Assembly: GCA_963681505.1 (NCBI GenBank)
Contig: OY811982.1
Location: 2,209,156 to 2,273,155 of the forward strand
From: Eunapius fragilis
Taxonomy: Eukaryota > Porifera > Demospongiae > Spongillida > Spongillidae
Length of the DNA: 64,000 bases
Reading direction: 5' to 3'
Positions 8,051 through 60,935 of the stretch are shown here, piece by piece. Position 1 is the first letter of the stretch; each line of letters starts with the position of its first letter. The notes below the pieces were generated by a model. The model saw only the letters and a list, made by a program, of their open reading frames with translations. It made no database searches and was not told where the DNA came from. The position numbers were made by a program, and so were the translations under genes.

Positions 8051-8405
8051 ATGGACGTAGATTCGGTTCCGAACCATATCTATACAGCATGGGATACGAA
8101 TGCGGAACGCATGCACCCCAATTTAGTAACCCTTAATATCATTAGGTAAGCCTTAATTTGATTAACCTCGCGCAGACATATAGACGCTCGCGGTGCATGT
8201 CATAAAGTAACCTACATATATATACCCGGTTACATGTCCTGCGTGTAAATTGTTCGTTGCATTCGCTGTATTAAATACGAGTTCTCTGCAAAGTCGTAAA
8301 TCGTACACCGCCAAATACAAGCTCCAAGTCATCAAATGGTACCATGCAAATGGAAGCAATGCTCATGCTGCTGCAAAGCATTTTGACATAACGCGATCAG
8401 TATAC
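8051..8405 (+). pseudogene. Transposase 5' exons (left arm), pogo/CENP-B-like
   Basis: Exon one starts at ATG 8051 and reads MDVDSVPNHIYTAWDTNAER before a GTAAGC donor at 8146. A second coding block at 8301-8405 reads AKYKLQVIKWYHANGSNAHA then AKHFDIT, the K-Y-K-x-x-V-I pattern of the Psq/CENP-B N-terminal helix-turn-helix that binds transposon ends in pogo and Tigger transposases. The reading frame closes soon after, at the palindrome centre, and no DDE domain follows. The right arm holds the same two blocks inverted. The assignment rests on the motif pattern only. Confidence 0.6.
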
Positions 8406-8699
8406 TGATTGGATGGTTAATTGGCTAAGAAGGTTTAATGTTCATTAATAGGGTGCATTTTTGCAGCAGATCCTTCTTAGCCAACCATCCAATCAGTATA
8501 CTGATCGCGTTATGTCAAAATGCTTTGCAGCAGCATGAGCATTGCTTCCATTTGCATGGTACCATTTGATGACTTGGAGCTCGTATTTGACGGCCGGTGT
8601 ACGATTTATGACTTTGCAGAGAACTCGTATTTAATGCAGCGAATGCAACGAACAATTAACACGCGAGACATGTAACCGGCATTAATGACGGGTATATCT

Positions 8700-8719
8700 G
8701 AACCTGCGGCAGCAGGTTC
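8700..8719 (+). repeat. 5' terminal hairpin of Helitron-like copy C
   Basis: GAACCTGC-GGCA-GCAGGTTC forms an 8-bp stem with a 4-base loop, followed by AATATAGGATTGA. Copies A and B have a different stem sequence (GGAACTAC-GATA-GTAGTTCC) in the same position, followed by TATATAGGAATTGA. Confidence 0.8.
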
Positions 8720-8935
8720 AATATAGGATTGATTGAGGGTTGATGAATGTCATTAATAAAACTTCACTAGCGTCTGGAGGGACAACGGAGAAACGGATCG
8801 CTTATCTCTTTGTCGCGGCGGAATGAGAGCACAACGATCTACAGTTCTACGTTTGTTCCGTGTCATAAAACGGTGTGGTTATAGAGAAACAAACAATTTC
8901 CTGTTTCTCGTGCCCAGTCCTAAAATAATTCTCCA

Positions 8936-8957
8936 TCGTCGTCGTCGTCGTCGTCGT

Positions 8958-8988
<31 letters not shown>

Positions 8989-8989
8989 G
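8936..8989. repeat. (GTC)n(TTC)n microsatellite
   Basis: GTC repeats followed by TTC repeats; shorter GTC/TTC runs occur at the same relative place in copy B (about 34828-34850). Confidence 0.9.
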
Positions 8990-9176
8990 GAAGGTATAAC
9001 TCGAGCTACGAACGGTTTTGGAGGACGGGAATAGTACCAATCGCTTCGAAATTTACCGGCACGTTATCCTTACATGTCATATAGACATACATATATCAAG
9101 TTCTATTTATTAATAATTTTAGGCAGTTATAAATACTCTAACCTGCACTAACTTTATTTGGTGTTCCACTTTGGCT

Positions 9177-12100
9177 ACACAGCCAGAAGTATACAGCCTG
9201 GTTCAGATCTGGTGGGGTGCTACAGCCTGTTCCAGGGCTGCGTAACAATTTGAAACGGCCCTGTTGGTATATCACATTCTGAGCCAGGACTGTACATTAC
9301 CTCAGGTCCAGACTGCAGCTTCAGTCCGATTACCTCCTGGTAACAGTACGTTTACAACCTGGCACCAGTCTGGTATGCTCCTGAAAACAGTCTGAGACAG
9401 TCCTGCTGCCGCGTGCATATATGTCAGCGCTTGATTCTAGCAACGGTTTTAGCGCTTTACAACCAGCGGACGGATATTGTATGCATGCATGCGCAGCGCT
9501 CGAAATAGAATGACACCGGTACCGTGCACCTCACCTCACTACCTACCTTGACCCTTGCCAGGTATATGTTACTACACAATTAAGCATTATGTTTTTGTCT
9601 CAAATCATTTTAATGGATTTCCTGGATAAATATATATGAAAGCAGCGCAGCATGAGTGGCAAACTTCAGTGTTAAAACTAATATAACGGTCAAATTAAAA
9701 TTACGTAATGTGACCTTCCGGCCAAATATAAATTAGAGTTTTGAAAGTTCTGACGTGCGCGGCAATCACTTTGGAACTCGCATATTCGATAGTGTACTGA
9801 CTGAAATTCACCGTGGATGTCTTGAAGTATGTTTTAGCAGTGCATTTCCATGAATTCATCGCTGTGACCCGTTTTTCTAAATTACTAATTTGTAGTACGA
9901 AATGTGTCTTTCACGCGCGCTCTCGTTTTGACTACCTAGTAAGCAGTTGGACTACAAAAAAGTGCTTCGTAATGTTTTTCAACCTTTTACCTATTCTTTT
10001 TGTGTAGAATTACACCGTCTATTGTGCGTTTTGGTTTGTTATGATATGTAGTGTTCTAGCGATTCTAATAGTAGCCCACCCGATGAATGAATGATTACTT
10101 GGGTTTGTATAGGCTTTGTTTGTTATATTAGAGGTGCTTGTGTGATCCCTGTCCATACTGCCACATCTCCTGGACAGAGCCCTGACTGTCTCCTCCCCAG
10201 GTCCTTGTGCGTACTTCCACATCTCCTGGCCAGTGCCCTGACTGTCTCCCCCCCAGGTCCCTGTGCGTACTGCCACCTCTCAATCCACGTGCTTCAGAGC
10301 TTTTGAACCATCTTGGCAGTTCTGCCAACCCGTATTGCTGCTTGTATGAGGTATGATATTCGACTAACTTTGAATGTGTCATTACATGTATTTTGTTGCA
10401 GTCTGATAAGTGGGTCACACCACATGTTGTGTGTGAAGCGAGAACACTGGAGAGATGCCTGCAGCAGATTGCTGATATACGCTCACAGCCCACTCAGGAG
10501 AGGCGCAATGCCATGCAAACAGCATTAGGTTTACGAGCTGTGGATAATCCGATGTTAGTCATTAATGTGGATATGTACAGGTATGTGTGAGTGAGATGAC
10601 AGCATTTATGTGAAACACCGTACATCCATGTAGGAGCATGCCACTTGAAATGCTCCACACATTGGTACTTGGCTCTATCAAGTACTTGCTTAAAATCTGG
10701 ATGCCAACTCTCTCTAAAGTGCAGAAGAAAGAGGTTCTTGCAAGGGTCAAAGCGTTCTCTACCTCAGGGTTTAAAGTGCGAATGTATGGAAATGTTTACT
10801 ATTATTACCAGTCATTTGTTGGGAGAGACTTCAAGGCCTGGGCTCAAATGGCTGTGTTCATTTTAAGCCCGTACCTAGACGATGCTCAAAAGAAAGTTAT
10901 ATTGAGCATTTCCAAGGTACAGTACCATGTGTTATGCTTCCTTCATGTACCAACATTGTGTATATATCTAGGTGTTCTGTATTGCTTACTGCAATTACTT
11001 TACTGAGGAGCTAAGCACGGAATGGGAAGGGGTATGTGAAGAATTTGTGCTAACTGCAAAGCACTACCTCCCAGAATTATTGATGAAGCCAAAGGTACAT
11101 CTCCTCCTTCATTTGGTGAGCTGCAGGCAGGACTTCTGACCCAGTTCAGCATTTAGTGCAGAAAGGTAACGTGTTTTTCGTGATGTACTGTAGTTTACAT
11201 GTAATCCTTTTTGACAGATGTGAATCCTTTAATGCAAGTGTCAGGGCTCAGAATATCAATAGCAATCGACTTGCACCTAGTCGTGACATTAGTCGTCATT
11301 TTGCGGTCCAGCAACACATTCGCCACATATGTTACATCGGCTGTACTCAGGAGGCTGTTAGGTAGGTTGGCTGTTTGTCCTTTCACACCAAATAATCATT
11401 TTTTATTCTTTTTGTTCTTTTTATGGTAGGTGTGGGAAAGGTTTGCAAAGCCTGTATTCCTCTCCAGTTGTTCAGCACAACTTTAATAACATCACTTTGA
11501 GAGACTTAAATAGTGAACGGAGACTTTATTAGCGGGGTGCATTGCGAAAGGTAAATCATGTGTCTAATGTGAATTCAGTATTCGTTTATATGTATGCATG
11601 TCATTGTTGCAGCGTGTTGGAAGGTCATCAGTAGTGCTGAAGAATCTTAAGCTAGACACTGTTGGACTACCATATGCTACGATTGAAGACCTCAGCTCCA
11701 ATGATCCCTCCACCGTTGTGCAGCTTTTCCTCTGCACTGCAGATGACGATGTGTCTCCTCATAAAGGGATCATATCACAAGATGGTGGGTGAGCTTGTCA
11801 GTCGGGAGATTTTATAGAACTAAGCTTCTTGTCAGGTATGAGGCACAATACACGCAGAAGTGTACTAATTTGTTACAATTGCAGGCCAAATATGCCATCT
11901 TTTTAGTGGCATGCCAACTCAGCTCAGGCAGAAGGTTCTGTTTAGTTCAAGGTTGTGATACCTTGTGCGCTTCCAGTGGACAACAGATCCTTAATTCATA
12001 TGACTGCCTTCTAATAACTGTTACACAAGAACACTTTTTACTGTGGACTGTTGTTCTATTCGGCGAGCTGTCTGTTGTACATGAATGTTTGGAAAGCTGC

Positions 12101-12489
12101 AAGTTTGTGCAGGAGGAGAGCACAAGGAGGGTGGAACGCCAGAGAACTAGTGAAGCCGTTTTAGCATGATTGGAACAACATGTTGTACTGTATACTGTGT
12201 TTGATATTGTTTTGTGGTCACGTATATGTTGTTGAAATAATACAATGTAGCTAGTATATTACTGGCGCTGCGTGGATTTTTTAATGAGATAACAGCCCGA
12301 TTATTGCCTGGTACCATGGCTGTACGCGACTGATACCAGGGCTGATTACCTCTGGTAAGAACAGTCCGAGACAGGAAGTTGCTCTATCTGCCCTGATCCA
12401 GGCGTTTGTACCAGGCATAGCCCATGTATGGTACCAACCTGACTAAATATTGGTACCAGGCTGGTACAGGAAAATATTTCTGGCTGTGT
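9177..12489 (+). mobile_element. DNA transposon K, nested in the Helitron-like element
   Basis: Inverted ends ACACAGCCAGAA(G/A)TAT, with many subterminal copies of CAGCCTGGTAC/CCAG-type motifs in both orientations (9190-9410 and 12295-12475), a common pattern for transposase-binding sites. The sequence on either side (..CCACTTTGGCT and AGTGAAGTTCTTTTT..) is continuous in the paralogous copy B near 35085-35145, which proves insertion. TA is on both sides if the element is taken as 9178-12488; the target duplication is therefore probably short. It carries a multi-exon transposase-like gene. Superfamily is not settled. Confidence 0.8.
10401..12168 (+). CDS. Transposase-like protein, multi-exon (element K)
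   Basis: Exons separated by short GT-AG introns are readable. About 10401-10580 starts SDKWVTPHVVCEARTLERCL. About 10634-10917 reads MPLEMLHTLVLGSIKYLLK then SFVGRDFKAWAQMAVFIL. About 10973-11090 reads VFCIAYCNYFTEELSTEWEG and KPKVHLLLHL. About 11219-11361 reads CESFNASVRAQNINSNRLAP then SRDISRHF. Further blocks reach a stop at 12168. The sequence P-x-E-x-L-H..LG..KY, VGR-x-F and ESFN..R..N...NR-APSRDI resembles, from memory, a transposase-like family common in mushroom-forming fungi and some invertebrates. I cannot name the catalytic residues. The 5' part before 10400 (including a 62-bp tandem repeat at about 10150-10280) is unclear. It probably catalyses mobility of element K; some frames look interrupted near 11100 and 11530. 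Confidence 0.55.
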
Positions 12490-12513
12490 AATAGTGAAGT
12501 TCTTTTTCTAAAA

Positions 12514-13100
12514 ATGCAAAAGAAGAGATCTAAGCAACGAGCGGAATACCTCCAAAAGCAATACGAGAACAAAGCTAAAGCCCCAGCGCTCTACAAGGCC
12601 AATCCCCCCCCAAAAGAAGGCCTCTGTACGCGACAACTGCAAGGCCGATCCAGAAAAGAAGGCCTCTGTACGCGACAGCTACAAGGCCGATCCCGAAATG
12701 AAGAAGGCCTCTGTACGCGACAGCTACAAGGCCGATATTGAATCTAAGCGATCTGCTAAAAGGTGGCGATACGAAGAACCTCGAGGAGAACCGTGCTGCT
12801 CAAAGGCGGCGATATGAAGAACCTCGAGGAGAACCGTGCTGCTCAAAGGCGGTGATATGAAGAACCTCGAGGAGAACCGTGCTGCTAAAACTAAAGGCGG
12901 CGATATGAAGAGGACCTTGAGGAGAACCGTGCTGCTAAAAGGCGGCGGTATGAAGAGGACCTCGAGGGAAATCACGCTGCTAAAAGGGAGAAATATCAGC
13001 TACCATTAAGCATCTGAAAGGAGTCGGTATTGGAATGATCCCGCTGCCCGATTGGCTAAATGTGCTGCCGAGAGGACGCGGTACCGCAGGGGTCACAGAA
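12514..13100 (+). pseudogene. Lys/Arg-rich repeat ORF of the Helitron-like element
   Basis: It starts MQKKRSKQRAEYLQKQYENK, matching MPSRQQKRRAKRREEYLQ in copy B (35149 onward). Tandem 45-bp-type repeats follow (about 12590-12990) that encode variants of SYKADPEKK and AAKRRRYEEDLE blocks, but in changing frames, so the copy is degenerate. Basic repeats of this sort occur, as I recall, near the N-terminus of Helitron-encoded proteins in some invertebrates; this is not verified. Element K interrupts the leader just upstream of the ATG. No helicase motif follows. Confidence 0.5.
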
Positions 13101-13170
13101 CTACCACTACCACCCAAAGGTATTTTATGGCATGTTGTATTAACATTAAAAAGCTGTGCATGCAACATTT

Positions 13171-13265
13171 GTACAGCATAGTCGGGCGGCCCTACTACCG
13201 CGTTTGGTCGGGTTTGTCATGCACCCTACTACCTGTAGGTAGTAGGGCCCGCCCGACTATGTACA
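13171..13265. repeat. Hairpin with GTAC..ATAGTCGGGCGG arms
   Basis: ATAGTCGGGCGGCCCTACTA at the left recurs inverted at the right (TAGTAGGGCCCGCCCGACTAT), with an inner palindrome CCTACTACCTGTAGGTAGTAGG. From here to 14078 no gene is seen. Confidence 0.7.
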
Positions 13266-14078
13266 CCACGGATCTGCACAAAACCATTCACTCCACATGC
13301 ATGGTGGCTCAACTGTGTGTGTACAGTAGTGTCTATTGTTTTAATCTGATAAAGCTTCCTTATCTGAAGTCTAGCCATGTACTGTGAATGTTGCAACTGT
13401 ATGAATATAGTTACAGTTGCAAGGGCTGAGAACTAAATAGCTGCAACTATATCCTTTTCCCATATAGCTACTCCTTGTATGAACCCAAATCTCATGCACC
13501 AATGGAGTATAATGGTGGTCTTGAAAAAGCTACTCCTAGGGGTAGTGATCTGCCTGTGCAGCAGTAAGTAAGATAAGCCACCATTAGGTACTTCTAGCAG
13601 CACACTCACATTTATAAAAACAAACCTTCTGCCCACACTCATAAAGCTGCAGACCCTGTCCACAGATATTACCTCACATGAGAACATATCCTTATCAATC
13701 GATCTACATGCTGCCATGTACTGCCATGTAGTTCACTTCCTTAGTTCCCACACTACCCATCTATACAACTTAAGTGCATGTAGGCTACACCTCCATGTTT
13801 AGATGGGACTGGATCAAATTTGACCAATAGAATTTTAGCACAACTGACACGTATACACCCCTTCCCTCCCTGTCATTAATATGATGGAATTGGACTCACA
13901 GTCTGCACACGTGTTAAGGCTTTGCAGGTATAAAAGCCACTCATCCGCTGAATAGTGCACTTAGCAAAAAGAGGTAAAATTTTAATAATACTCTATGTGC
14001 ATGTGTAAAGGCTTTGCACTTTGCTTTAAAAAATAAAGAAGTAAAAATTTAATCATACTCTCTGTTACGTATATGTAG

Positions 14079-14366
14079 ATGGCTGACGACCTTTGCGGGT
14101 TTTTCACCAACGAGGGGTCGGAGGAGGAAGAGTGCATTCATCCTCCAACTCCTCTCCCCTTCACCCCATCACCTCCAGAAGCCCCGCTTCTGCCACCACC
14201 GCCAGCAGCACTGCCCACACCACTACCAGCAGCTACTCCCGCCGGCACCACCAGCGCTGCCCCCACCGGCGCTCCTGCCTGCACCATCAGCCCTGCCCCC
14301 ACCATCAGCCCTGCCCCCACCACCAGCAGTACTATTAAAGTTATTTGTTCTTGCATTAAGAGATAA
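14079..14366 (+). CDS. Acidic/proline-rich ORF of the Helitron-like element (95 aa)
   Basis: It opens MADDLCGFFTNEGSEEEE right after a TATGTAG acceptor-like site, then HPPTPLPFTPSPPE and Pro/Ala/Thr-rich repeats (ISPAPT three times), and ends ICSCIKR. It ends about 75 bases before the element's 3' palindrome. The fragment at 142-707 shares the opening, so the ORF is a recurrent part of the family rather than chance. No enzymatic motif is visible; it could be a low-complexity accessory protein or the last exon of a larger gene. Confidence is high that it is a family component and low that it is translated as drawn. Confidence 0.45.
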   Translation: MADDLCGFFTNEGSEEEECIHPPTPLPFTPSPPEAPLLPPPPAALPTPLPAATPAGTTSAAPTGAPACTISPAPTISPAPTTSSTIKVICSCIKR

Positions 14367-14440
14367 AGGGGATCATCCATCCTCTTCCTACATTTGATTA
14401 TTGACTATGATACTGCTATGACAGGGTGAAAAAAAACTTA

Positions 14441-14734
14441 TGAAACAAGTAAATAAAAACATTCTCTAACGAGAGAGTTGTTGGTATATAGGATTGACCA
14501 ATGGTGGTGTAAAAAGCATGGAAACAAGAGTGACAGAAATATTATTGGAAAATTGAAATAGGCCTATATTTAGCACACAATACAACACACATGCCTGAAT
14601 AATGGGCTAAATATAGGCCTATTTCAATTTTCCAATAATATTTCTGTCACTCTTGTTTCCATGCTTTTTACACCACCATTGGTCAATCCTATATACCAAC
14701 AACTCTCTCGTTAGAGAATGTTTTTATTTACTTG
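14441..14734. repeat. 3' palindrome of Helitron-like copy C
   Basis: About 140-bp near-perfect inverted arms beginning ACAAGTAAATAAAAACATTC and containing CTAAATATAGGCCTATTT near the centre. Homologous palindromes close copies A (about 34222-34531) and B (about 35414-35690); a half-copy lies at 46332-46456. Transcripts would form a very long hairpin. Confidence 0.9.
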
Positions 14735-31832: not shown

Positions 31833-32174
31833 TTGTGAATCAACGAATATTCCCGTATATCCTTTCATAGACATGTATGGGATTCTTTAATTCCAAGCAC
31901 ACCAGATTTTTCTCAGCATTTGCCATGAGGGATTGTTAGTACCGGCACTACATTTGCCATGATTTTTAGCTGTATTTTTCCTATTTAAGACGTCGTTTTA
32001 CCATACACTTCTACCAGGAAAAATACAGAGACCCCACTAAAAATCATGGCAAATGTAGTGTACTACTACTAACAATCCCTCATGGCAAATGCTTAGAAAA
32101 ATCTGGTGTGCTTGGTATTAAAGAATCCCATACATGTTATGAAAAGATATACGGGAATATTCGTTGATTCACAA
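31833..32174. mobile_element. Foldback MITE, about 150-bp arms
   Basis: The arms start TTGTGAATCAACGAATATTC and match inverted with small indels, separated by about 30 bases. No clear target duplication and no ORF. Confidence 0.8.
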
Positions 32175-33606: not shown

Positions 33607-34531
33607 TCAGGAACTACGATAGTAGTTCCTATATAGGAATTGACCCGGGTCGTGAATATCATTTTAAAAACGCAACCAGCGTACAACTCGCGTACCAAGA
33701 AACGGATAGTTTAGCTCTTTGTTCCTATCGAACCAGAAGGCAAAGACGGTCATTTGAATGTTTTGTTCCAGTCTTAAAACTGTTTGCTTCAAGAAAACAA
33801 AAAAGCACGTGTTTTACCACGTCCCCAGGCCAATTCTTATCCGTCGTCGTCTAATTCTTCAAGTACAACTTGGGATACGAATGGTTTTAAAGAGCGCAAA
33901 TTATACCAATCGCTTTAGAATCTCCTGGAAGGACATCTTCAGGTATCAGATATATGAATAAAGCATAAAACTGATATACGTAATCATTACGTAATGCGTA
34001 GTGTAAAATAGAAGCGTTCCCATGGCGACATTTACGTATATTTAGAATTGAAACAAAAGAGGAAGCTAAACAACAAAACGACGAGTTAGAATTCTTCTTA
34101 CAGTGATCTCAAACAAAAGCGGGCGTCTGCTCGTGACGGTAATTGAAGCGGGGGGGGGGGGGGCACTTGCCATATTAAGAATCGATAAAAAATGATAATT
34201 AAAAAATAGAGGAAACAATAAAGAAAAACATTCTCTAACGAGAAAGTTGGTAGGATATAGGAATTGGATATAGGAATTGGAGGCAATGGTGGTGTAAAAA
34301 GGAAGGGAACAAGGTTTTGAGAAAATGGTAATGAGACAAAAATCCTATATTTAGCACGCGTAAATGTAACAGAACCAAAAGATGTGCTAAACATAGGATT
34401 TTTGTCTCATTACCCTTTTCTCAAAACCTTGTTCCCTTCCTTTTTACACCACCATTGCCTCCAATTCCTATATCCAATTCCTACATGTATATCCTACCAA
34501 CTTTCTCGTTAGAGAATGTTTTTCTTACTTG
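33607..34531 (+). mobile_element. Helitron-like element, short copy A
   Basis: It starts TCAGGAACTAC with the 5' hairpin GGAACTAC-GATA-GTAGTTCC and ends CTTG, inserted between A and T. It keeps the leader region and a truncated basic ORF start, a G tract (34150-34164) and then the terminal palindrome. It is internally deleted relative to copy C. Confidence 0.8.
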
Positions 34532-34594: not shown

Positions 34595-35690
34595 TTAGGA
34601 ACTACGATAGTAGTTCCTATATAGGAATTGACCCGGGTCGTGAAATCATTAAAAACGCGACCCGCGTATAACTCGCGTACCAAGAAACGGATAGTGTAGC
34701 TCTTTGTTGCTATCGAACCAGAAGGCAAAGACGGTCATTTAAAAGTTTTATTCCGGTCTTCGAACTGTTTGCTTTAAGAGAACAAAAAAGTTCGTGTTTT
34801 ACCTCGTCTCCAGGCCAATTCTTCTCGTCGTCGTCGTCTTCTTCTTCTCGGGTGAGTATAACTCCGGATAGGAATGGCTTTAAAGAGCGCTAATTATACC
34901 AATCGCTTTAGAATCTCCTGGAAGGACATCTTCAAGTATCGGATATATGAATAAAGCTTAAAACTGACATACGTAATCATTACGTAATGTGGAGTGTTAA
35001 ATTGAAGTGTTTCCATGGCAATATTACGTATATTTAGAATTGTGCAGCGTTATAAACAGCATTTGATTGCAGTTTTGTTCACCACTTTGGCTAGCGAAGT
35101 TGATTTCTTTCGAAACCAGGCCACTTTTGGCTAGCGAAGTTTTTTAAAAATGCCTTCACGTCAACAAAAGAGGAGAGCTAAACGACGAGAGGAATACCTC
35201 CAAAATCGAGACGGTCGACGAGTTAGAGTCCTCCCGCTTCGGTACAAACCTGACCCTTCAAAAGCGGGCGTCTGCTCGTGACGGTAGAAGGGGGGGGGGG
35301 GGGGGGGGTGAACTGCATAAGTGCAATTAAAGAGGCTACGTCATAACTATAACTTGTGAGCACTTGCCAGTATTCGCAGAAATCATCGACACTAAAATTA
35401 AAAATAGAGGAAACAAGTAAAGAAAAACATTCTCTATAACGAGAAAGTTGGTGGGACATAGGAATTTGAGGCAATGGTGGTGTAAAAAGGAAGAGAACAA
35501 GGTTTTGGGAAAAGAAAAATGAGATAAAAATCCTATATTTAGCACTTTTTTTGGTTCTGTTACATTTACACGTGCTAGATATAGGATTTTGTCTCATTTT
35601 TCTTTTCCCAAACCCTTGTTCTCTTCCTTTTTACACCACCATTGCTATATCCCACCAACTTTCTCGTTAGAGAATGTTTTTCTTTACTTG
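34595..35690 (+). mobile_element. Helitron-like element, short copy B
   Basis: It starts TTAGGAACTAC and ends CTTG, between A and T, 63 bp after copy A in the same orientation. The ATG at 35149 opens MPSRQQKRRAKRREEYLQ, the same start as the basic ORF in copy C. A G tract (35291-35309) and the 3' palindrome (35414-35690) follow. The uninterrupted leader at 35085-35145 shows where element K entered copy C. Confidence 0.85.
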
Positions 35691-60373: not shown

Positions 60374-60935
60374 TCTATACAGCTATTTGATAAATATAGG
60401 CAAATTATCGCGTCTTCTTCAGACCACGAAAAGGCCTATATGCAGACGCATGTAGTACCGCTGAATGGTAGATGAGCTAGGTCTGTCTGTCGTTCTATAC
60501 AGCTATTAGGCAAATTATCGCGTCTTCTTCAGGGCACGAAAAAGTCTTTAGCATGTAGTACCGAGACTTGTACTAGTCTGGCGTAGCCACACCCTCGCGT
60601 AGACACATAGGGTCTGGGGAAATGCCTATACCCGACTGGTTCTAATGAGCAATTATTGCGTTCTACGTCACGCTGCGTCACGTAATGAGGAATGCAGCGA
60701 AATGGGCTAAGATTGGCTTGTAAATTAGCAAACAACACTTACAAGCCAATCTTAGCCCATTTCGCTGCATTCCTCATTACGTGACGCAGCGTGACGTAGA
60801 ACGCAATAATTGCTCATTAGAACCAGTCGGGTATAGGCATTTCCCCAGACCCTACGTGTCTACGCGAGGGTGTGGCTACGCCAGACTAGACGTGTACTGA
60901 ATGGTAGATGATCTAGGTTAATAACGATCCCGCAT
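60374..60935. repeat. Tandem duplication of about 110 bp, second copy split by a MITE
   Basis: CTATACAGCTATT..AGGCAAATTATCGCGTCTTC to GCATGTAGTACCG and TGAATGGTAGATGA(G/T)CTAGGT occurs at 60377-60480 and again from 60496, where the MITE interrupts it. Confidence 0.8.
60574..60888. mobile_element. Palindromic MITE, probable 9-bp target duplication
   Basis: Near-perfect inverted arms from TAGTCTGGCGTAGCCACACC to the centre near 60728-60740. GACTTGTAC (60565-60573) and GACGTGTAC (60889-60897) flank it, 8 of 9 identical. A 9-bp duplication suggests a Mutator-like origin; no ORF. Confidence 0.8.

Follow-up and report, generated by a model that had tools for sequence, protein, structure and literature searches.

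A 64,000-nucleotide stretch of the genome of the sponge Eunapius fragilis (contig OY811982.1, positions 2,209,156 to 2,273,155; here called the window) carries three copies of a mobile element that we read, with a probability of roughly 80%, as nonautonomous members of a recently active, noncanonical Helitron lineage. In this reading, the long palindrome at the 3' end would serve as a strong terminator that either goes through a hairpin or cruciform stage or recombines its arms. Alignment of family members shows that paired changes between families preserve the 5' hairpin, the 3' palindrome, and the subterminal inverted repeat, and the loop of the palindrome has inverted recurrently. A first-pass annotation, made from the letters of the window alone, had proposed a Helitron-like family with unusual ends at this place; the loop inversion was absent from it.

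Anatomy of the three copies

Copy 1 (8697..14734, plus strand) is a family 1 element of the GGC type, with 6,038 bp including a nested 3.3-kb element with terminal inverted repeats (TIRs), and both of its ends could be read. Copies 2 (33607..34531, plus strand) and 3 (34595..35690, plus strand) are short, nonautonomous, and assigned to family 2/3. The first-pass annotation had placed the three copies at these coordinates between A and T, with CTTG termini and a small hairpin near the 3' end, and direct reading of the window bore out all of these points. The starts are TCTGAAC in copy 1 and TCAGGAAC and TTAGGAAC in copies 2 and 3, with TT as the first two bases of copy 3. All three end in CTTG, and a TCTC..GAGA hairpin lies 16 to 17 bases before each 3' end.

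The general layout runs from T(C/T) through a 9-bp stem with a 4-base loop, an 11- to 13-bp subterminal inverted repeat, and the body to a palindrome whose arms are about 130 bases long. The 5' hairpin of copy 1 (8699..8720, plus strand; loop GGCA) is followed directly by the subterminal repeat ATATAGGATTGA (8721..8732, plus strand), whose length was equaled in 0 of 300 shuffles. Its inverted counterpart occupies 14683..14694 on the minus strand (TCAATCCTATAT on the plus strand), 41 to 52 bases from the 3' end. The terminal palindrome of copy 1 (14446..14734, plus strand) consists of a left arm (14446-14577), a loop (14578-14602), and a right arm (14603-14734); 131 of 132 arm positions match, and the last base is paired. 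The small classical 3' hairpin TCTCTCGTTAGAGA (14704..14717, plus strand) could be read directly within the right arm, 17 bases before the end. When the region 14420-14734 was folded as DNA, it yielded -154 kcal/mol versus -25.7 +/- 4.1 kcal/mol for 100 shuffles. The corresponding structures are a 5' hairpin at 33609-33630 and a palindrome at 34216-34531 in copy 2, and a 5' hairpin at 34597-34618 and a palindrome at 35414-35690 in copy 3. Counting both strands, the window has 10,674 A/T junctions, and at only 3 of them, those of the three copies, does a 4-base loop on a perfect 9-bp stem begin two bases further on; base-shuffled windows gave 3 per 1,025,907 sites.

A RepHel gene between the same ends

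The first-pass annotation had suggested looking for a full copy with Rep and helicase domains, and the genome contains one. In the 10,014-bp element at C1:17969696-17979709 (locus L069/L071), the ends of copy 1 flank an open RepHel frame of 1,995 amino acids (aa) that matches DUF6570, Helitron_like_N (PF14214, 89.7 bits), and PIF1 (71.5 bits) in Pfam. No endonuclease, including a C-terminal apurinic/apyrimidinic (AP) endonuclease, was among the Pfam matches of this frame. RepHel proteins of the lineage carry GAPHYHVLLW and HYVTGYVTK, which we take to be HUH/Y2 Rep motifs. The full element has further frames with basic repeats upstream and proline-rich sequence downstream of RepHel, neither with a Pfam match above the cutoff. 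Copy 1, for which this element is an autonomous relative and which has same-family copies in L009 to L038, also has a proline-rich reading frame (14079..14366, plus strand) at the place corresponding to that of L069.

Searching the genome with Helitron_like_N gave 91 matches. Their scores divide them into two classes, as do the motifs of the seven loci in which these were examined. In the Helraiser-like class, a 1,030-aa stretch of L039 scored 907 bits against the solved Helraiser protein (PDB 7LCC). A 1,188-aa stretch of L049 that includes Rep, from the lineage studied here, scored 26.7 bits. The Helraiser-like proteins (L039 to L043) have open frames of 634 to 1,277 aa; L041 and L042 carry the motifs of L039, and L040 and L043 were assigned solely by their PF14214 scores. 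The ends of one Helraiser-like locus, intended as a comparison with canonical ends, could not be delimited.

A hairpin of the described layout stands after an A upstream of the Rep match at 10 of 10 RepHel loci of this class; in eight of these regions, the script itself required the A/T junction and a perfect stem, and each region held one such place. For 6 of the 10 loci we located a palindromic end with CTTG followed by T. The small 3' hairpin was read in the window copies and in some of the autonomous ends and was not evident in L086. Four autonomous loci (L078, L082, L090, and L074) share the 5' end TCGAGAGTTAC and have a long tandem-repeat array downstream of RepHel; the 3' end of these elements was not reached. 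The search likewise located no 3' ends for the TCGAGAG family, whose region holds long tandem repeats, and the 3' end of L070 was looked for in L072 and not found there. The search for relatives elsewhere gave none among viral contigs and two pattern matches among other genome contigs, neither of which is a relative.

Insertion between A and T

We searched the whole genome (219 Mb in 24 contigs) for the ends of these elements. The 300-bp 3' end of copy 1 recurs at 100% identity over 300 bases in at least 40 places, its own included (40 of 1,187 candidates were scored), and the 5' end of family 1 occurs 845 times with at most two mismatches. Judging from these sequences, family 1 is probably young and large, and the window copies look like members of a large, recently active Helitron lineage of this genome.

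The base before the 5' end was A in 30 of 30 cut-out loci, which are the first ones on contig C1. Over the whole genome, 705 of 726 exact 5' ends of family 1 were preceded by A and 21 by another base, which was G in 15. The exact 3' 22-mer was followed by T in 3,400 cases and by another base in 38, although perhaps half of the 3,400 are not junctions, as the left palindrome arm also holds the 22-mer with the element's own T. Occurrences with C instead of T form clusters at C13:167720-298194 (four), C22:141303-158109 (four), and C8:9910531-9923339 (three), which are possibly duplicated arrays.

To look for empty sites, we joined the flanks of 18 elements and searched them against the DNA already fetched. 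Four of the 18 joints were matched across by a paralogous empty site, and in each best match the A and T were intact, with no duplication; the other 14 joined flanks had no match across the joint in the fetched DNA. The empty site of autonomous L087 lies in L096 (99.4% identity over 160 bases). That of L030 (92% over 160) falls in tandemly repeated sequence; of three repeats shown there, one has G for T. That of L022 matched at 87% over 134. The empty site of copy 1 is paralogous and lies within the window (8147..8288, minus strand). Copy 1 inserted into one arm of an inverted repeat, and this site belongs to the opposite arm; it matched at 84% over 161 columns, with 12 left-flank bases missing five bases from the joint. 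Insertion between A and T without target duplication, proposed from three copies, thus holds at 705 of 726 genomic 5' ends and at four empty sites. Together with a RepHel frame between the same ends, it supports the Helitron behavior that the first-pass annotation had described.

Head-to-head 5' ends, adjacent and in opposite orientations, occur in L038 (1317-1716) and at C1:6301590+/6301627-. On C14, same-orientation matches at 5925238, 5925996, and 5926754 follow one another at intervals of exactly 758 bp, as head-to-tail copies in a tandem array would.

Paired changes in the end structures

Over eight distinct sequences, all 72 cells of the 5' stem were paired, and six of the nine pairs had changed on both sides. 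When the partner was slid by one to three columns as a control, 25 to 49% of the cells were paired. The hairpin loop had G as its first base and A as its last in all 10 sequences. Directly inside the hairpin stands a sequence beginning ATATAGGA or ATGTAGGA, with an inverted copy 36 to 70 bases before the 3' end. This match is 11 to 13 bp long in seven of eight elements, and in those seven it is the longest or tied for the longest within its own family.

The arms of nine 3' palindromes measured 129 to 138 bases, with 0 to 4 mismatches and 0 to 13 gap bases; 97 to 100% of the aligned arm bases matched. Pairing extended to the last base in eight of the nine. Arms were 67 to 84% alike between families and 90 to 99% alike among four members of family 1. 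We aligned eight palindromes (omitting L080, which is nearly identical to L094) and found at least two different paired letters in 71 of 120 stem columns; 49 columns were invariant, and 8 cells were broken. A palindrome was also present in nine of nine short copies whose 3' end was located by its last 24 bases. In seven of eight palindromes, the left arm starts with CAAG after an A, which read outward is CTTG followed by T; copy 2 has CAAT. The motif GG(A/G)AACAAG stands in midarm in all eight aligned palindromes (GAGAACAAG in copy 3), and the outer margin of their left arms repeatedly shows GAAA followed by CAA(G).

Inversion of the palindrome loop

Neighboring copies 2 and 3 have left flanks and left ends in the same orientation and palindrome loops that are nearly reverse complements, that is, the loop of copy 3 is inverted relative to that of copy 2. 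Using patterns anchored outside the left arm, we counted the two loop orientations genome-wide at 430:110 in family 1 and 180:66 in family 2/3; these counts include at least one palindrome (C5:8647262-8647559) twice, once per orientation, because its anchor is present on both sides. Reversed control patterns gave 0 matches. On contig C1, the flip:flop ratio was 11:9 in the GTC subfamily and 27:3 in the GGC subfamily (P = 0.007 [by Fisher's test]). Palindromes were linked to a subfamily by position only, through the closest exact 5' end on the same strand at a distance of up to 12 kb; 15 of 65 remained unlinked, and two share one 5' end. Some variants of the arms, CATTCTC and CCTTCTC among them, were found in both loop orientations among the matches listed, which implies that inversion has happened more than once, unless recombination exchanged arms and loops.

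Comparison with known groups

Helitron2 is defined by a 5' hairpin plus asymmetric inverted repeats (PMC3627910). The lineage described here resembles Helitron2 (Bao and Jurka 2013, PMC3627910) in its 5'-terminal hairpin with compensatory changes, its short inverted repeats near both ends, its 3' hairpin, and a RepHel protein distant from that of Helitron1. The asymmetric inverted repeats (ATIRs) of Helitron2 lie 0 to 2 bp from the 5' end, within the hairpin, and 20 to 30 bp from the 3' end, whereas those found here lie at 25 to 37, beside the hairpin, and at 36 to 70 (seven of eight elements). The target of Helitron2 is TTTT^T/C (compiled in PMC5148889) rather than A^T, and, unlike Helitron2, the present lineage ends in a palindrome of about 290 bp with an invertible loop.

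Among Helentrons and their derivatives, Mite HINEs (Thomas et al. 2014, PMC4067079) have 12- to 15-bp subterminal inverted repeats about 38 to 60 bp from the 3' end, similar to those seen here, and proto-Helentron-Pi of Phytophthora inserts into A^T, as here, with ends TT...CTAG (PMC4067079). OTU frames, which stand for a cysteine protease present in some members, are reported in Helentrons (PMC4067079); here, a C-terminal OTU match of the 1,995-aa frame scored 21.2 bits, below the Pfam cutoff of 23.3. Insertion into A^T rather than T^T, the giant palindrome, and Pfam matches of RepHel that include no AP endonuclease separate the lineage from the Helentrons as described there. FoHeli1 and FoHeli2 of Fusarium (PMC5148889) likewise have hairpins at both ends and 12-bp asymmetric inverted repeats, and their start, TCAG, is also similar. 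They differ in their ATTTT end and their target, and the accessible parts of that paper mention no long palindrome.

With Helitron1 and Helraiser (PMC4778049; PDB 7LCC), the lineage shares the TC start, the A^T target, and a small hairpin near the 3' end. It departs from them in its distant Rep (27 versus 907 bits), its 5' hairpin, its subterminal repeats, and a palindrome of about 290 nucleotides (nt) instead of 19 nt. Helitron1 is also characterized by a 3' CTRR and no 5' hairpin; the present lineage has a 5' hairpin, and CTTG ends all three window copies and the six autonomous 3' ends, some of which were searched for with CTTG as part of the pattern. CTTG ends are on record for truncated forms of Helraiser and, as cited there, for maize Helitrons (PMC4778049). 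Of the three oddities listed in the first-pass annotation, the 5' hairpin is therefore a hallmark of Helitron2 (PMC3627910) and the CTTG end has precedents (PMC4778049), which leaves the palindrome of about 290 bp, reaching to the last base, as the unusual feature.

Taken together, A^T insertion, a hairpin set apart from the repeat, the CTTG terminus, a palindrome of about 290 bp that runs to the last base, and an invertible loop place the lineage outside at least one tested definition each of Helitron1, Helitron2, and the Helentrons. The layout is closest to Helitron2 and the Helentrons, and our best reading is a new end variant of Helitron2-like elements. Judged by published descriptions of known groups, an undescribed subgroup is plausible. 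Our literature search, made on result lists and the opening lines of abstracts and with Repbase and HELIANO outside its scope, gave no report of Helitrons with a terminal palindrome of about 290 bp or with loop inversion.

Proposed mechanism and alternatives

In Helraiser, the 19-nt 3' hairpin is the terminator, and circles are intermediates (PMC4778049). For the noncanonical lineage, we propose that Rep would bind the subterminal repeats and that the 5' hairpin would expose the nick site A^TC. The helicase would displace the strand until the 3' end of about 290 nt snaps into a 130-bp hairpin that halts it, a stop like that of the Helraiser hairpin and presumably much firmer. The hairpin would also position the cut that Rep makes after CTTG; the freed single strand would then go into a new A^T, probably by way of a circle. 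The matched arms and the loop inversions may come from repeated passage of the palindrome through a hairpin or cruciform or from recombination between its arms.

Several points weigh against this account. The terminator role of the palindrome is put forward by analogy, and the loop inversions cannot separate transposition from chromosomal recombination. Copy 2 leaves its last five bases unpaired, and copy 3 starts with TT and has 6 bp of subterminal repeat, which 144 of 300 shuffles equaled. The 21 family 1 5' ends that lack a preceding A and the 38 non-T 22-mers, spread over 12 contigs with 11 of the 38 in three local clusters, do not fit A^T insertion. No 3' end was found for 4 of the 10 RepHel loci by searches that sought palindromic CTTG ends and that other ends would escape. 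The whole L069 protein scored 90.9 bits against Helraiser, with its best match in the helicase, and its OTU match stayed below the cutoff.

The palindrome might have no role in transposition. It could be a frozen accident, in which the 3' end was once inserted in inverted orientation at an A^T and gene conversion has since kept the arms alike. The A and CAAG at the start of seven of eight left arms resemble such an inverted end, and the flank GAAA is common to all eight palindromes. Yet the left arm and loop occur in 786 anchored matches in two families (at least one place counted twice), all nine short copies checked have palindromes, and a large palindrome is probably too costly to be retained for long without use. 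We consider such an accident unlikely.

The terminal palindrome of parvoviruses reaches the 3'-OH and occurs in two loop orientations. A rolling-hairpin process would work similarly here: the 3'-OH of the excised strand, paired to its own left arm, would prime the second strand, and Rep would resolve the hairpin where the left arm carries a mirrored CTTG^T on the other strand, copying one arm onto the other and inverting the loop, as in parvoviruses. Pairing to the terminal base in eight of nine palindromes, the outward CTTG followed by T in seven of eight, and arms that remain matched while families diverge are consistent with it, as are the loops inverted in 110 of the 540 anchored matches of family 1 and in 66 of the 246 of family 2/3 and the 11:9 ratio of the GTC subfamily on C1. 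However, the palindrome is present at one end only, the orientation of the GGC subfamily is clearly biased (27:3), recombination between chromosomal arms predicts the same pattern, and Helraiser uses circles (PMC4778049). On balance, rolling-hairpin replication seems quite improbable to us. The fuller proposal, that a transposon has evolved parvovirus-like end replication with a self-primed second strand from the 130-bp hairpin and Rep resolution at the mirrored CTTG^T, is slightly harder still to credit. The lineage also differs from parvoviruses in that no capsid genes were seen and that it transposes into A^T.

A canonical Helitron1 family with eccentric ends would explain the TC start of two of the three window copies, the A^T target, and the small 3' hairpin. 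We rejected it, as very improbable, on the scores to Helraiser of 26.7 bits for the L049 Rep stretch versus 907 for L039 of the same genome; the 5' hairpin and the subterminal repeats also speak against it.

The least probable origin, to which we give almost no credence, is a foldback element, a miniature inverted-repeat transposable element, or a DDE transposon. The TIR element inside copy 1 and unrelated foldback palindromes elsewhere in the window might suggest one. The TIR element (9176..12490, plus strand; 17-bp TIRs beginning TACACAGCCAGAA, 94% complementary) is not part of the Helitron proper: at least 20 other loci read through its joint (69 to 87% identity), so it is nested in copy 1, and we rejected it as the mover. 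Four of its frames had no significant Pfam family; they may be KDZ/Plavaka-like. Four empty sites without target duplication and a RepHel frame enclosed by the same ends led us to reject a DDE or miniature-element origin as well. The first-pass annotation had named target duplications and a linked DDE transposase as grounds for abandoning a Helitron; the four empty sites have no duplication, and the TIR element is nested.

Other palindromes in the window

Other long palindromes or foldback repeats, with arms of 150 to 181 bp, lie at 60573-60889, 31833-32174, and 8253-8652 and by eye are unlike the Helitron ends. In the repeat at 8253-8652, one arm has copy 1 in its flank.

Significance

Programs that detect Helitrons by their ends and are tuned to CTRR plus a hairpin of 16 to 20 nt would probably miss elements of this kind. 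To our knowledge, it is still open how Helitrons recognize and end at their 3' terminus and how the single strand is converted to a double strand. The family described here offers hundreds of copies, empty sites, and open transposase frames, and the invertible loop and matched arms of its end structure preserve a record of that structure's past. Loop inversion between copies gives a rare view of the way in which these elements copy their ends. If parvovirus-like end replication were true, one enzyme would link rolling-circle and rolling-hairpin replication.

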